Shown here piece by piece: positions 21,288 to 26,827 of a DNA stretch of 64,000 nucleotides. The notes under the pieces are model-generated. The model was not told where the DNA came from, ran no database searches, and saw nothing but the letters and a program-made list of their open reading frames with translations. The position numbers and the translations under genes were made by a program. Numbering within the stretch: the stretch's first letter is position 1; each line of letters starts with the position of its first letter. Source of the DNA: Thioalkalivibrio sp. ALJT. GTDB lineage: Bacteria > Pseudomonadota > Gammaproteobacteria > Ectothiorhodospirales > Ectothiorhodospiraceae. The stretch is from positions 268,001 through 332,000 of the forward strand of contig NZ_KB907121.1 in NCBI RefSeq assembly GCF_000381825.1, read 5' to 3'.

Positions 21288-21420
21288 GCGGCGGCTTCCT
21301 TGAGTTGAGCGTCAAGCGTAACGGGCGCCCCGAGTGCGTACAAATAAACGCGGCCCAGTGGGCGCGCCCGCAGACGTCCCTGTAGAATGCCGCGCGTTCC
21401 CTGTCCGGACTCCGTACTTC

Positions 21421-24132
21421 ATGTCGCAAGCACCCCTCGTCCTGGTCGATGGCTCGTCGTATCTGTTCCGAGCGTTTCATGCCCTGCCACCGCTGACCGC
21501 GCCGGATGGCGCGCCGACCGGGGCGATGATCGGCGTGGCGAACATGCTGCGCAAGCTGCGCGCGGACTACGGGCCGGCGCACATGGCGGTGGTGTTCGAC
21601 GCGAAGGGGCCGACTTTCCGTGACGAGATCTACCCGGAATACAAGGCCACCCGCCCGCCGATGCCGGCAGAGCTGGGCGCCCAGATCGATCCGCTGCATG
21701 AACTGGTGCGGGCGATGGGCCTGCCGCTGCTGTGCGTCGAGGGCGTGGAGGCCGACGACGTGATCGCGACCCTGGCCGACCAGGCCGCCCGCGCCGGGCA
21801 CGACGTGGTGATCTCCACCGGCGACAAGGACCTCGCCCAGCTGGTGAATGACCGCATCACGCTGGTCAACACCATGAGCGGGGTCACGCTGGACCGCGAG
21901 GGCGTGCAGGAGAAGTTCGGCGTGGCCCCGGAGCAGATCGTCGACTACCTCGCGCTGATGGGCGACAGCGTCGACAACATCCCCGGCGTGGAGAAGGTCG
22001 GCCCGAAGACCGCGGCCAAGTGGATCGCGAAATACGGCGACCTCGACACCATCCTTGCGCAGTCCGACGCCATCGGCGGCAAGATTGGCGAGAACCTGCG
22101 TGCCGCAGCCGAGCGCCTGCCCACCTCGCGGGAGCTGATCACGGTCCGGCGCGATGTCGAGCTGGATACCGGCCCCGACGACCTGAACATCCGCGAGCCG
22201 GATCACGAGCGCCTGCTGGAGATGGTGCGCCGCTATGGCTTCACCCGCTGGCGCGCGGAGCTGGAGGGCGGCGAGGCCGGCGACAGCGCCGACAACGGGG
22301 GCAATCCGGGCTCGTCGCAGGCGCAGGGGGATTACCGCACGTTGCGCGAGGCGGCCGAACTGGCCGAGCTGCTGGAGCGTCTGGACCAGGCCGAGCGCGT
22401 CGCCTTCGACACCGAGACCACCAGCCTGGATGCGATGCGCGCCGAGATCGTCGGTATGTCCTTCGCCTTTGAACCGGGCACCGCGTACTACCTGCCACTG
22501 GCCCACACCGGGCCGGATGCCGACCCGCAGCTGCCGCGCGAGCAGACGCTCGAACGCCTGAAGCCGTGGCTGGAATCGGAGCGCCACGGCAAGCTGGGTC
22601 ACCACCTGAAGTACGACCGCAACGTGCTGGGCAATCACGGCATCACCCTGCGCGGCATCGTCGACGACACCCTGCTCGAGTCGTTCTGCCTGGATGCCGG
22701 CGCCAACCGCCACGACCTCGACTCCCTGGCCGAGCGCCACCTGGACTACAAGACCACGCACTACGAAGACGTGGCCGGCAAGGGGGCGAAGCAGATCCCG
22801 TTCGCCGAGGTGGACATCGGCATCGCCACCGATTACGCCGGCGAGGATGCCGACATCTGCCTGCAGCTGGATGCCGTGTTTCAGCCGCGCCTGCAGGAGG
22901 CTGAAGGCCCCGCGTTCGTCTACCGCGAGATCGAGATGCCGCTGGTCCCGGTGCTGGCGGATATCGAACGCGCCGGCGTGAAGGTGGACCCGGACCGGCT
23001 CGGCGAGCAGAGCCAGGAGCTTTTGGCCGAGATGGAGCGCATCGAGCGCGAGGCCTTCGCGGAGGCCGGGAGCGAGTTCAACCTCGGCTCGCCCAAACAG
23101 ATTCAGGAGATCCTGTTCGAGCGCCTGGGCCTGCCGGTGCTGCGACGCACCCCCAAGGGCCAGCCCTCCACCGCCGAGGACGTGCTGGAGCAGATGGCGG
23201 ACGACTACGCCCTGCCGCGCCTGATCCTCGAGCACCGCGGCTTGTCCAAGCTGCGCAGCACCTACACCGAGACCCTGCCCCGGCGCATCCACCCGGAGAC
23301 CGGACGGGTGCACACCTCCTATCACCAGTCGGGGGCGGCCACCGGGCGGCTGTCGTCCTCGGAGCCGAACCTGCAGAACATCCCGGTGCGCACCGAGGCC
23401 GGCCGGCGTATCCGCCGTGCGTTCATTGCGGATGAGGGCCACCAGCTGCTGGCGGCGGACTACTCGCAGATCGAGCTGCGCATCATGGCCCACCTGTCGC
23501 AGGACGCGGGCCTGCTGAAGGCCTTCGCAGAGGGTCAGGACATCCACCGCGCAACCGCCGCCGAGGTCTTCGGGCCGGCCCCGGAGCAGGTCTCCGGCGA
23601 TCAGCGCCGCGCGGCCAAGGCGATCAACTTCGGCCTGATCTACGGCATGTCCGCCTGGGGGCTGGCCCGCAACCTCGGCATCGAGCAGGGCGAGGCGCGG
23701 GAATACATCGACCGCTACTTCAACCGCTACCCCGGCGTGCACGACTACATGGAACGGGCCCGCGCCTCCGGCCGCGAGAACGGCTATGTCGAGACCCTGT
23801 TCGGCCGCCGCCTGTACCTGCCGGAGATCAACAGCCGCAACGGGGCGCGGCGCCAGCAGTCCGAGCGCGTGGCCATCAACGCCCCGATGCAGGGCACGGC
23901 CGCCGACATCATCAAGCGCGCGATGGTAAGGGTCGCGAACGAGCTCGCGGCCGCGCAGATCGACGCGCGCATGATCATGCAGGTCCACGACGAACTGGTG
24001 TTCGAGGTGGCCGATGCAGCGGTGGAAGACCTGACCACGCTGGTGCGCAAGGCCATGAGCGGGGCCGCGGATCTCGACGTGGAGCTGGTCGTGGACATCG
24101 GCACCGGCGCTAACTGGGACGACGCCCACTAA
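21421..24132 (+). CDS. polA: DNA polymerase I
   Basis: Repair and Okazaki-fragment polymerase of 903 residues with all three domains. The 5'-nuclease is at 1-290 (VDGSSYLFRAFHALPP, GDKDLAQLV). The 3'-5' proofreading domain is intact, with D330 and E332 in DTETTSLD. The polymerase domain has motif A DYSQIELRIMA (D680), motif B RRAAKAINFGLIYGMSAWG and motif C QVHDELVFEV (D857). The ATG at 21421 places the first beta strand (LVLVDGSSY) where expected. A weak -10 (TAGAAT, 21382-21387) lies upstream. The locus order resembles that of pseudomonads. Confidence 0.98.
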   Translation: MSQAPLVLVDGSSYLFRAFHALPPLTAPDGAPTGAMIGVANMLRKLRADYGPAHMAVVFDAKGPTFRDEIYPEYKATRPPMPAELGAQIDPLHELVRAMGLPLLCVEGVEADDVIATLADQAARAGHDVVISTGDKDLAQLVNDRITLVNTMSGVTLDREGVQEKFGVAPEQIVDYLALMGDSVDNIPGVEKVGPKTAAKWIAKYGDLDTILAQSDAIGGKIGENLRAAAERLPTSRELITVRRDVELDTGPDDLNIREPDHERLLEMVRRYGFTRWRAELEGGEAGDSADNGGNPGSSQAQGDYRTLREAAELAELLERLDQAERVAFDTETTSLDAMRAEIVGMSFAFEPGTAYYLPLAHTGPDADPQLPREQTLERLKPWLESERHGKLGHHLKYDRNVLGNHGITLRGIVDDTLLESFCLDAGANRHDLDSLAERHLDYKTTHYEDVAGKGAKQIPFAEVDIGIATDYAGEDADICLQLDAVFQPRLQEAEGPAFVYREIEMPLVPVLADIERAGVKVDPDRLGEQSQELLAEMERIEREAFAEAGSEFNLGSPKQIQEILFERLGLPVLRRTPKGQPSTAEDVLEQMADDYALPRLILEHRGLSKLRSTYTETLPRRIHPETGRVHTSYHQSGAATGRLSSSEPNLQNIPVRTEAGRRIRRAFIADEGHQLLAADYSQIELRIMAHLSQDAGLLKAFAEGQDIHRATAAEVFGPAPEQVSGDQRRAAKAINFGLIYGMSAWGLARNLGIEQGEAREYIDRYFNRYPGVHDYMERARASGRENGYVETLFGRRLYLPEINSRNGARRQQSERVAINAPMQGTAADIIKRAMVRVANELAAAQIDARMIMQVHDELVFEVADAAVEDLTTLVRKAMSGAADLDVELVVDIGTGANWDDAH

Positions 24133-24145
24133 CCGGGAGCTCAAC

Positions 24146-24643
24146 ATGTTCGCCCACCGCTTCAACCGGATCGCCGCCTGGCTGGTCGCACTGCTGCTGG
24201 TCGCAACGGCCTGGGTGCTGGCCGAGCGCTATCTGGACATCGGGGCCGACGCCGACCTGCCGATCGTCCAGGCGCAGGCCTGTGACCTCAACGCCGGCCC
24301 CTGCAGCACCGCCCTGGCACAGGGCGGCGAGGTGCGTCTGGAGATCACGCCGCGCCCGGTCCCGATGCTGCGGGAACTGACGCTGGATCTGCAGCTGGAT
24401 GCCGCAGCGCTGTCCGCGCTGGGCGCCCCGGAGACCCTGGAACTGGACCTGGCCGGGGTCGAGATGTACATGGGCTACCAGCGCCCGCGCCTGGAACATA
24501 CGGGTGCGGGCCAGTACCGCGGTACGACCACGCTGCCGATCTGCACCACCGAATCCATGACCTGGGCCGCCACCGCCATGCCGGCAGGCGAACCCGAGGC
24601 CTCTTTCGTTCAATTCCGCTTCATCACTGCACGCGACCATTAG
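24146..24643 (+). CDS. Membrane-anchored or exported hypothetical protein upstream of SCO
   Basis: A 165-residue protein with one N-terminal hydrophobic segment (AAWLVALLLVATAWVLAE, about residues 9-26), then a predicted beta-rich periplasmic domain. Two cysteine pairs may matter: C46/C53 in AQACDLNAGPCST, and C133 in LPICTTESM. Its position four bases before the SCO gene, with a good GGGAG ribosome site, suggests a shared envelope role in copper or oxidase assembly (inference). I do not recognise a named family. Confidence 0.75.
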   Translation: MFAHRFNRIAAWLVALLLVATAWVLAERYLDIGADADLPIVQAQACDLNAGPCSTALAQGGEVRLEITPRPVPMLRELTLDLQLDAAALSALGAPETLELDLAGVEMYMGYQRPRLEHTGAGQYRGTTTLPICTTESMTWAATAMPAGEPEASFVQFRFITARDH

Positions 24644-24646
24644 ACC

Positions 24647-25288
24647 ATGCAACGGATACCTGTCAGCAGCCTGTTCTGGGGCCTGGCCGTCCTCGCGGCC
24701 GGAGCCCTCCTGATCGTCGTCACCCTGAACCCGAGCGCGCCGCCGCTGGCCGAGCCCGGACATGCCAAGCTGCCGGTTGCCGAGGAGGTCCGCGGCGGCC
24801 CGATCGAATTGCCGGTGGCGACCCACGCGGAGCGCTTCGACCTCGCCGACTACGAAGGGCAATACGTATGGCTGTACTTCGGTTACACCTTCTGCCCGGA
24901 CGCCTGCCCCACCAGTCTCGGCTGGATCAGTGGCGCACTGAACCAGCTGCCGGAGGCGCTACAGGGGCAGGTAAACGCGGTCTTTATCAGCGTCGACCCC
25001 GAGCGTGATACCCCGGAGCACCTGGCGAACTACGTAGGCTACTTTCACACCGACATCCACGCCGCGACCGGGCCGAAGGATGCGCTGCGCGCCACAGCTC
25101 AGGACTACGGTGTATTTTTCGAACGCGCCGAGACCGAATCGGCCATGGGCTACGTGATCGACCACAGCTCTTCGACCTACCTGATCGGCCCCGCGGGCGA
25201 CCTGCTGGAGATCCACCCGCACGGGACCTCCGCGGCGGATCTGGTCGCAACGCTCGAGGCACACGCCCAGCCGGGGGACACGGACTAA
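24647..25288 (+). CDS. SCO1/SenC family protein
   Basis: Membrane-anchored periplasmic thioredoxin-fold protein of 213 residues, involved in copper delivery to, or thiol reduction of, cytochrome oxidase CuA. An N-terminal membrane segment (residues 9-27) is followed by the thioredoxin fold with copper ligands C83 and C87 (FCPDACP) and H173 (VIDHSSSTYL). It forms an operon with the preceding hypothetical gene. Its stop codon TAA lies within the CTAA target duplication of the MITE-like element that follows, so that element sits directly at the end of the gene. Confidence 0.93.
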   Translation: MQRIPVSSLFWGLAVLAAGALLIVVTLNPSAPPLAEPGHAKLPVAEEVRGGPIELPVATHAERFDLADYEGQYVWLYFGYTFCPDACPTSLGWISGALNQLPEALQGQVNAVFISVDPERDTPEHLANYVGYFHTDIHAATGPKDALRATAQDYGVFFERAETESAMGYVIDHSSSTYLIGPAGDLLEIHPHGTSAADLVATLEAHAQPGDTD

Positions 25289-25585
25289 GGAGACGCTGGT
25301 TTAATCGCACGTCCGCGCTCGAGTCGCTTTTGCGTGCGAACAAGGCGCGGTGACTGCCGTGCAGTCATTCTGCACAAGGGAGCCGCAACGCCGTGCGCAT
25401 GCAAAAGCGGCCGAGCCCCTGCTTTCAATGGCTTGTGGGGTTGGTGCCCCCCCCCGATTCTGGATGAATATGGCCCGATCCTGCGTTGCGCCGCTCGCGG
25501 GTAGAACCACTACCCGCTGCACGACGCGCCTTGTCTCTGAAAACAGGGGGCACCAACGCGGACGTGCGATTAAATCAGCGTCTCC
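25289..25585 (-). mobile_element. MITE-like element with 29-bp terminal inverted repeats (copy A)
   Basis: A 297-bp non-coding element bounded by 29-bp inverted repeats that differ at one position. The outer ends read GGAGACGCTG(G/A)TTTAATCGC. It is flanked on both sides by CTAA (25285-25288 and 25586-25589), a likely 4-bp target duplication. Its interior, read on the minus strand, matches the copy at 26556-26827 in long blocks such as GACAAGGCGCGT(C/G)GTGCAG, CGCAACGCAGGATCGGG and CCCTTGTGCAGAA. No transposase is encoded, so it would need one supplied elsewhere. Confidence 0.85.
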
Positions 25586-25653
25586 CTAATGCAGACGCCG
25601 GGGGAACACGGATCCTGCCTTGCAGGGCACCCCTCCGTCGCGGCGCAAACAAC

Positions 25654-25669
25654 TGTGAAGCACATCACA
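25654..25669 (+). promoter_or_regulatory. CRP/Vfr-type binding site
   Basis: TGTGA-AGCACA-TCACA is an exact match to the CRP core TGTGA-N6-TCACA. It lies upstream of the small-RNA candidate and could overlap or precede its promoter, as CRP does at the Spot 42 gene in E. coli. CRP, Vfr or another family member could bind. None is encoded in this window. Confidence 0.6.
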
Positions 25670-25699
25670 ACAAGATCCTGCACCCGGGGAACTTCTCCC

Positions 25700-25839
25700 C
25701 GCACGCAGCCTCTTAACAGACGAGCGCTCTAGCCCAGCGCGGCCCGCTTTCTCTCCCTGAGCGGGCAAAGGCCTCTACTCCCCCCCTGTAGAGAGGCCGA
25801 AACTTGCCCCGGCCCCTCCCCAGGCCGGGGCATTTTTTT
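25700..25839 (+). ncRNA. Candidate small RNA at the Spot 42/ErsA position
   Basis: Between the SCO gene and engB lies a stretch with no reading frame but strong secondary structure. It has a GCCCGCT/AGCGGGC hairpin (25740-25766), a GGCCTCTAC/GTAGAGAGGCC hairpin (about 25770-25799), and a perfect intrinsic terminator. In enterobacteria the Spot 42 RNA, and in pseudomonads ErsA, occupy the polA-engB interval. A CRP-type site stands upstream. The 5' end is not determined; 25700 is a rough guess. Confidence 0.45.
25806..25839 (+). terminator. Strong rho-independent terminator
   Basis: A perfect 9-bp stem (GCCCCGGCC and complement), an 8-base loop, then A and seven T residues. It points rightward although no plus-strand gene ends nearby other than SCO, 520 bases back. 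That supports a separate short transcript ending here. Confidence 0.9.
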
Positions 25840-25861
25840 GTCGGAAAGGCGTTGCCGGAAA

Positions 25862-26473
25862 TCACCCTTGCGCAGGCTGCAACCAGTCCGCAAGCAGGCC
25901 GCGCAAGTCCTCGACCCCCTGATTTTTCAGGGAGGAAAAGGTTTGCAGCGTGGCCTCGACGCCCATGGCCTCCAGCTCGCGCTGGGCACCATGCAGCTGG
26001 CGGTCCGCCTGTTGCCGCGAGAGCTTGTCGGCCTTGGTCAGCACGCAGTGCAGGTGGCAGCGATCCAGCGGCACCCAGTCCAGGAGCTGGCGATCGAGCT
26101 CGGTCAGAGGGCGCCGGATATCCATGATCAACACCAGCCCGCGCAGACAGCGACGGGCCCGGAGATAATCCCCGAGCAGCTGATCCCAGTGCTGGCGCTT
26201 GCCCGCCGAGACCTTCGCATAGCCGTACCCGGGGAGATCCACCAGACGCCAGTCCTCAGCCGGGGGCAGCGCAAACAGATTGATCTCCTGGGTGCGCCCC
26301 GGGGTGCGACCAACGCGCGCCAGCGCCTTGCGGTCACAGAGGCTGTTCAGCGCGCTGGACTTGCCGGCGTTGGAACGCCCGGCGAAGGCAATCTCGATGC
26401 CGTCATCGGGCGGCAGCTGCTCGACCCGGGCTACGCCCTTGATAAAGCCGGTCTCGCGAAAGCGGGGTTCCAT
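25862..26473 (-). CDS. engB: Ribosome biogenesis GTPase EngB (YihA/YsxC)
   Basis: Essential GTPase of 203 residues that helps assemble the large ribosomal subunit. G1 is GRSNAGKSS (residues 32-40), the switch region is GRTPGRTQEINLF, G3 is DLPGYGYAKV, and G4 is TKADKLS. The start codon gives the family's usual N-terminus, and AAGGAT lies upstream. It is convergent with the small-RNA candidate and divergent from cytochrome c4, with a MITE-like copy in the divergent gap. Confidence 0.96.
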   Translation of the reverse strand: MEPRFRETGFIKGVARVEQLPPDDGIEIAFAGRSNAGKSSALNSLCDRKALARVGRTPGRTQEINLFALPPAEDWRLVDLPGYGYAKVSAGKRQHWDQLLGDYLRARRCLRGLVLIMDIRRPLTELDRQLLDWVPLDRCHLHCVLTKADKLSRQQADRQLHGAQRELEAMGVEATLQTFSSLKNQGVEDLRGLLADWLQPAQG

Positions 26474-26555: not shown

Positions 26556-26827
26556 GGAAATACGGGTCGGTCTATACCCTCGCGTCGGCATTTCGGGTTT
26601 TCCAGGACAAGGCGCGTGGTGCAGCGGGTACTGGTTCTGTCCACCCGTTGTGGATGGATTCGGGCGCAACGCAGGATCGGGGAACCCGGGGCGCCAATCT
26701 CAAAGATACTCGGGCGCCGTAACGGCATTGCGGTTCCCTTGTGCAGAAGGACTGCGCGGCGGTCACCGCGCCTTGGTCGCACGCTAAAGCGACGAAGCGG
26801 CGAGGGTGTACATTGACCCATGTTTCC
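26556..26827 (+). mobile_element. MITE-like dispersed repeat, copy B
   Basis: A 272-bp element whose ends are imperfect inverted repeats of about 28 bp (GGAAATACGGGTC at left; the complement of GGAAACATGGGTC at right). The interior is about as similar to copy A as the ends are diverged, in opposite orientation. No clear target duplication remains (TCAA at left, TTCA at right). It fills most of the gap between engB and cytochrome c4, and could influence the promoter of the latter. Confidence 0.7.

Follow-up and report, generated by a model that had tools for sequence, protein, structure and literature searches.

We propose that positions 25720-25839, on the + strand of the 64-kb stretch of DNA analysed here (the window), are probably the gene of a trans-acting small RNA of about 120 nt. 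This gene would be driven by its own sigma-E type promoter, end at its own terminator, receive a further input from CRP and act through loops directed against ribosome-binding sites. The first-pass annotation had described an exact CRP core site, three hairpins and an intrinsic terminator at 25654-25839, with no reading frame; all of these elements are present, and the overlapping open reading frames of at least 60 aa are mechanical, none of them plausible. It had also placed the locus in the polA-engB interval, which is correct in that the predicted RNA gene lies between both genes, but polA is not its direct neighbour. The convergent neighbour is engB (yihA/ysxC; 25862-26473, - strand; TIGR03598, 220 bits, cut-off 124), which served as the anchor for locus comparison. 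polA (21334-24132, + strand; NF004397 and TIGR00593 over cut-off; 1202 bits, cut-off 720) is the next gene but two upstream; a gene without a Pfam match (24146-24643), the SCO1 gene (24647-25288), which is the upstream neighbour of the RNA locus, and a MITE-like element intervene. This 303-bp element (25286-25588), with 32-nt inverted ends that are 94% complementary, separates SCO1 from the CRP site; 19 bp of it occur again, without mismatch, at 26663-26681, beyond engB.

The predicted RNA folds into a series of stable hairpins. A covariance model of the locus, R1, matches 25716-25838 with 92.6 bits; the end of the RNA was set at the T-run of the terminator and its start at 5-7 nt after the -10 box, where transcription starts are expected. 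The segment 25708-25840 folds with -61.9 kcal/mol (z -4.65), and none of 200 shuffles was as stable. Starting at 25708, ahead of the predicted RNA, the minimum-energy fold gives the second C-rich hairpin a different pairing, whereas folding from 25718 or 25721 yields three hairpins and the terminator. Hairpin 0 (GCGCU / AGCGC) spans 25724-25740, hairpin 1 with the loop UCUCUCCCU spans 25742-25766, hairpin 2, with consecutive C residues in the loop, spans 25770-25798, and hairpin 3 with its T-run forms the intrinsic terminator at 25805-25839 (stem 25805-25832, C-rich loop, seven T to 25839), all on the + strand. A terminator search found one terminator, with 0.6 expected in shuffles, which is unremarkable alone. 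The loops are UCUCUCCCU, CCCCCC and the CCCUCCCC type. Hairpin 1 is the most conserved part of the fold; no other unpaired part is as conserved as its loop, the presumed seed, whose sequence is complementary to ribosome-binding sites of the GGGAG type.

Covariation between relatives supports this fold and its strand. Of 116 related genomes, 113 have an EngB that could be placed, and in 80 of these we extracted the sequence that follows its 3' end. R1 was built from a 33-sequence alignment of EngB-anchored loci (A1), whose rows were chosen by script and by eye: 37 loci were tried and 33 rows kept; no row came from L066 or L083, those from L025 and L044 covered a wrong stretch and were discarded, and L042 was trimmed. 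The A1 consensus reads AAGCGCU..AGCGCUU, followed by CCCGCUUnnCUCCCUGAGCGGG, a C-rich hairpin and the terminator, with CTCCCTGA of hairpin 1 nearly invariant; on this alignment RNAalifold predicts 25 pairs, 21 of them with two-sided changes. Applied to 81 EngB-anchored loci, R1 gave 67 matches in 56 loci, 11 of which hold two copies. In the alignment of these matches (A3; 64 distinct rows), 97.5% of the cells are paired, against at most 49.6% in every slid version, and 23 of the 25 pairs show two-sided compensatory change. A3 includes the training rows and is model-fitted, and counts of two-sided change on model-fitted alignments lean towards the model. Two-sided changes occur in 5 of 5 pairs of helix 1 (hairpin 0; 99.7% of cells paired), 6 of 6 of helix 2 (hairpin 1), 6 of 6 of helix 3 (hairpin 2) and 6 of 8 of helix 4 (the terminator), where the other two pairs never vary. 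A second alignment (A2) holds 82 matches from the first 80 loci found by a hairpin 1 pattern; all 19 pairs of the three helices that played no part in that selection show two-sided change. G-U cells outnumber A-C cells in both alignments (78 versus 10 in A3, 102 versus 17 in A2), which places the RNA on the strand reading towards engB. The first-pass annotation had counted missing conservation in close relatives among the outcomes that would speak against it, and conservation is clear: R1 matches 80 of the 116 relatives at E<=1e-3, the 33 training rows among them, and none was found at this threshold in the other 36.

The predicted main promoter is of sigma-E type, GGAACTT-N16-TCTTA, directly before the RNA at 25688-25715 on the + strand; the first-pass annotation had missed it. 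Its -35 box GGAACTT (25688-25694) and -10 box TCTTA (25711-25715) are conserved across the model matches; we take this consensus to be that of RpoE/AlgU. Promoters were scored on 10 key bases (GGAACTT, a spacer of 15-18, TCnnA). Scores of 9-10 were reached by 42 of 67 R1 matches versus 0.6% of order-1 resampled controls, the spacer is 16 in 61 of the 67, and in 59 the end of the -10 box falls between -2 and +1 nt relative to the model start. Every one of the 25 loci of the window's genus scores 9-10, and so does L234, with 10. In the pattern-selected, mostly betaproteobacterial set A2, 41 of 79 rows score 9-10 versus 0.7% of controls (of the 82 rows, 3 with too short an upstream sequence were dropped). 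Burkholderia-type loci are mixed: L111 of Burkholderia ambifaria scores 7, and in Paraburkholderia and Pandoraea several loci reach 9 with GAAACTT, their -10 box lying 4-6 nt further upstream. The genome encodes RpoE (309 bits, cut-off 236), and a promoter scan found no sigma-70 promoter within 25270-25870. The conserved control of the RNA thus appears to be the sigma-E type promoter, which sigma-E itself presumably uses.

The CRP site is a narrower feature: conservation of the RNA extends far beyond it, which the first-pass annotation had likewise missed. The core TGTGAAGCACATCACA at 25654-25669 (+ strand), an exact match and a site predicted from sequence, is the only exact CRP core in the window; 0.03 were expected from shuffles, and 3 of 100 shuffles had one. 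Among 26 scored loci of the genus, 14 keep 9-10 of the 10 core bases, namely the window and 13 species with EngB at least 77% identical, and in all 14 the centre of the core lies 54.5-55.5 nt before the model start. Two further loci keep 7 bases at the same place and ten others 5-6, so that within the genus conservation of the site holds in the close species and not beyond them, the site being absent from the more distant species among these 26 loci. The half-sites are kept while the spacers vary between loci, which is the pattern expected of a bound site; in the closest relative, G023, another exact core occurs besides the first, and its spacer is not the same (TGTGAAAAATTTCACA). In a sister genus, the upstream RNA copies of five loci (L035, L037, L038, L051 and L054) have CRP-like sites with 9 of 10 bases, about 7 nt further upstream. 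Judged by its bases, the site is real but clade-limited, and CRP as the conserved control of this locus has to give way to the sigma-E type promoter.

In the window, the core is centred some 59-61 bp before the point where transcription is predicted to start. With the start 5-7 nt after the -10 box, this is presumably close to the class I position, -61.5; activation is our guess from this position. The genome encodes a class III cyclase and a CRP equivalog (317 bits, cut-off 266), which among PDB entries matches Vfr best (E 5e-76), and because both are encoded, cAMP signalling is possible. We therefore suggest that in this clade cAMP-CRP, about 60 bp upstream, may provide a second input, most likely an activating one. 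A CRP site on a sigma-E promoter would make a two-input switch that is open to direct test.

The CRP site and the place of the gene would also fit a true Spot 42, that is, a CRP-repressed RNA of carbon catabolite control, and the length is similar. Indeed, the E. coli gene spf lies between polA and yihA and is repressed by cAMP-CRP, as described in passages of PMC3295665. This identity is nevertheless improbable: the likeness to Spot 42 (RF00021) goes no further than the interval and the upstream CRP site, the Spot 42 model gives the window 18.0 bits (cut-off 80), R1 has no hit at E. coli spf even when E values up to 10 are allowed, and the promoter is of another type. In E. coli the CRP core also sits at about -84, counted from the annotated 5' end, compared with about -60 in the window. 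Of the Spot 42/ErsA pattern that the first-pass annotation had recognised, what stands is an RNA gene of the ErsA/sX13/anti-hemB type; kinship with Spot 42 is not supported.

The predicted small RNA is widespread. Across a class sample, R1 matches 151 of 274 genomes and 125 of 221 genera at E<=1e-3 (132 genomes below 1e-7; 12 of the 151 are training genomes), and 123 genomes gave no match at 1e-3. polA or engB is present in 26 of 30 strong class loci and neither in 4. In a phylum sample, 53 of 398 genomes match at 1e-3, 10 of them from other classes (24.8-33.4 bits), and a weak match within the window itself (16.6 bits, E 0.004) looks like chance. When named genomes were searched for the hairpin 1 signature, at least 120 stretches came up, mostly betaproteobacterial by title; Ectothiorhodospira mobilis, Steroidobacteraceae and other gammaproteobacteria are also among the matches listed. 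R1 matches 120 of 120 listed signature loci, partly by construction, as the pattern is hairpin 1.

Several loci hold more than one copy. Two tandem copies stand beside engB in L035-L038, L040-L042, L048, L050, L051 and L054 (11 of the 56 matching loci), mostly each with its own promoter-like boxes. Four tandem copies lie between polA and engB in G216:C33:13149-13906 (L210, L221), a locus that the ErsA, sX13 and anti-hemB models of Rfam all match, and G307 has four R1 matches on one contig. Away from engB, opposite-strand pairs of copies occur in one genus of the window's family (G036:C22:5038-5501, G038:C1:2412924-2413428 and G040:C75:10934-11437). Near the RNA locus of G094, a cspA thermoregulator match exceeds the Rfam cut-off (L073, 1251-1691). 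In the closest relative G023 (L009/L234), an EAL-domain-like coding stretch, judged by eye, adjoins engB.

The nearness of engB raises the thought of a cis-acting regulator, one that would control engB or the opposite neighbour as an antisense RNA or at the 3' end, as the name anti-hemB would suggest. Among 121 signature sites listed, engB lies within 1.5 kb in 75, and it is convergent in 74 of these 75. We regard such a role as quite improbable: no engB match was found in the fetched stretch of the remaining 46 sites, the gene on the other side varies, the RNA stops short of engB, and in G023 about 2.5 kb separate the two.

We consider a trans-acting mechanism likely and propose the following: the small RNA has a sigma-E (RpoE/AlgU) type promoter to itself, from which it would be read in the direction of engB, would be made under envelope stress and would end at its own terminator. 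The nearly invariant CUCCCU of hairpin 1, acting as the seed, and the other C-rich loops may then pair with G-rich ribosome-binding sites and lower the translation of target mRNAs, probably with Hfq, whose gene is encoded in the genome. There is a precedent in sX13, whose C-rich loops target G-rich sites close to where translation begins; loops and sites were both required in reporters, according to the experiments reported in PMC3771888. Given this precedent and a conserved hairpin 1 loop complementary to GGGAG, we take the loop to be a translation-blocking seed. Its calculated pairing energies with the hfq, crp and fnr leaders are not distinct from those with other genes.

Some small RNAs with repeated loops titrate proteins, and the RNA could in principle bind Hfq or CsrA rather than pair with mRNAs. 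CsrA-type motifs are GGA, whereas the loops here are C-rich and contain no such GGA motif. From what PMC3771888 reports, hfq itself is an sX13 target, which would suit titration, but the sX13 loops act by pairing with G-rich sites, and we consider titration very improbable. The idea that the region is only a strong terminator for SCO1, perhaps also for engB, with no separate RNA function is barely credible, as a good intrinsic terminator at the end and convergent genes on both sides would fit it, but a terminator requires no covarying hairpins, invariant loop or promoter, while here four hairpins covary, the hairpin 1 loop is nearly invariant, the promoter boxes stand at a fixed distance, and the - strand has no T-run after the stems.

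We now turn to the relation of the predicted small RNA to named families. At gathering thresholds Rfam gives no match over the window, and kinship surfaces only in E-value mode. The closest named family is anti-hemB (RF02837), which scores 44.6 bits, below its cut-off of 49.5. In 20 loci scanned, four matches pass this cut-off: L024, of the window's genus (53.2 bits), L048 and L035, of its family, and L133 of Ectothiorhodospira mobilis. The anti-hemB model exceeds its cut-off in 13 of 274 class genomes and reaches E<=1e-3 in 124; at the latter level it also matches E. coli, Caulobacter and Deinobacterium, though always below the cut-off, so that chance hits are among its weak matches. The window RNA shares with anti-hemB hairpin 1 (CCCGCUU..CUCCCUGAGCGGG), the C-rich second hairpin, the terminator and, as L111 shows, the place beside engB; the window has both the hairpin 1 signature, which recurs among the matches listed, and the gene beside engB. 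It differs in that the Rfam model, of 81 positions, lacks hairpin 0, that the L111 promoter has only 7 of the 10 sigma-E bases, and that the window's far neighbour is SCO1/polA. Expression is on record for this family: the parts of PMC5688073 on ncS04, an anti-hemB member in B. cenocepacia, describe a 105-nt RNA with its 3' end determined by RACE.

ErsA (RF01719) resembles the window RNA mainly in setting. According to the relevant passages, it lies in the polA-engB interval (PMC8575079) and has an AlgU/sigma-22-dependent promoter (PMC8395346, PMC5819304); the window shares the interval, by sequence the promoter type, and the C-rich loops. A covariance search with ErsA, which the first-pass annotation had suggested, gives only 22.4 bits (cut-off 50); the likeness holds for interval and sigma-22/sigma-E type promoter and not for the score. 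In the ErsA-bearing locus L209 we read the promoter GAACTT-N17-TCATA from the sequence; a perfect palindrome, GTGAAAATATTTTCAC, lies there at about 1420-1440, directly upstream of the sigma-22 -35 box, with a spacing unlike a CRP core. R1 gives ErsA 30.8 bits, and hairpin 1 aligns poorly. The ErsA model finds 10 loci at 1e-3, all beside polA or engB; R1 matches the same place in all 10, with up to 84.8 bits, and 9 of the 10 lie below the ErsA cut-off.

sX13 (RF02232) scores the window at 22.8 bits (cut-off 50). Its description in PMC3771888 places it downstream of polA, with three C-rich loops that block G-rich ribosome-binding sites; the window RNA has C-rich loops and lies 3' of polA as well. 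The same account calls sX13 Hfq-independent. No GGAACTT box was seen before sX13 in L219 or L220, and R1 scores sX13 at 34.3 and 27.1 bits. R1 matches 8 of 10 sX13-model loci (10 of 12 were examined), one of them at only 20 bits, without a match in L225 and L227, and polA or engB stands beside 6 of the 10. alpha-r7 and alpha-r14 (RF02342, RF02344), which also have C-rich hairpins, reach 30.5 and 27.8 bits, far below their cut-offs of 60 and 58.8; alpha-r7 is named as a polA-locus RNA in the text of PMC3771888.

The R1 scores of ErsA and sX13 (27-34 bits) are also reached by some alphaproteobacterial and other out-of-class matches, which lie at 24.8-33.4 bits, and hence R1 scores alone do not settle kinship. 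This kind of RNA is already known, and its members have names; its breadth, the shared sigma-E promoter and the addition of CRP seem unreported, as we found none of the three in the portions of the open-licence literature searched. No open-licence paper containing both 'sX13' and 'ErsA' was found, and the main text of a 2024 ncRNA survey that includes Thioalkalivibrio lacks the whole word 'polA'. The sX13 study, in the sections consulted (PMC3771888), found no homologs outside Xanthomonadaceae and asked whether other polA loci encode sRNAs.

Taking the comparison as a whole, common descent of ErsA and sX13 with the window RNA appears likely on the present sequences, though not proven. With similar, modest conviction we suggest that anti-hemB, ErsA, sX13, the window RNA and hundreds of unannotated relatives go back to one ancestral sigma-E-driven small RNA against ribosome-binding sites, which gamma- and betaproteobacteria would have inherited from their common ancestor, with its place at polA/engB. 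Extending this descent to Spot 42, as a far-diverged or replaced occupant of the same site, is doubtful. Under shared ancestry, CRP control would have been added separately in different lineages, here atop the sigma-E promoter. R1 finds the RNA in 151 of 274 class genomes, compared with 1 (ErsA), 2 (sX13) and 13 (anti-hemB) over the Rfam cut-offs. If the proposal is true, an old envelope-stress RNA would be open to study in harmless organisms, and what has been learned from ErsA and sX13 about biofilm, virulence and envelope stress would be one case of it.
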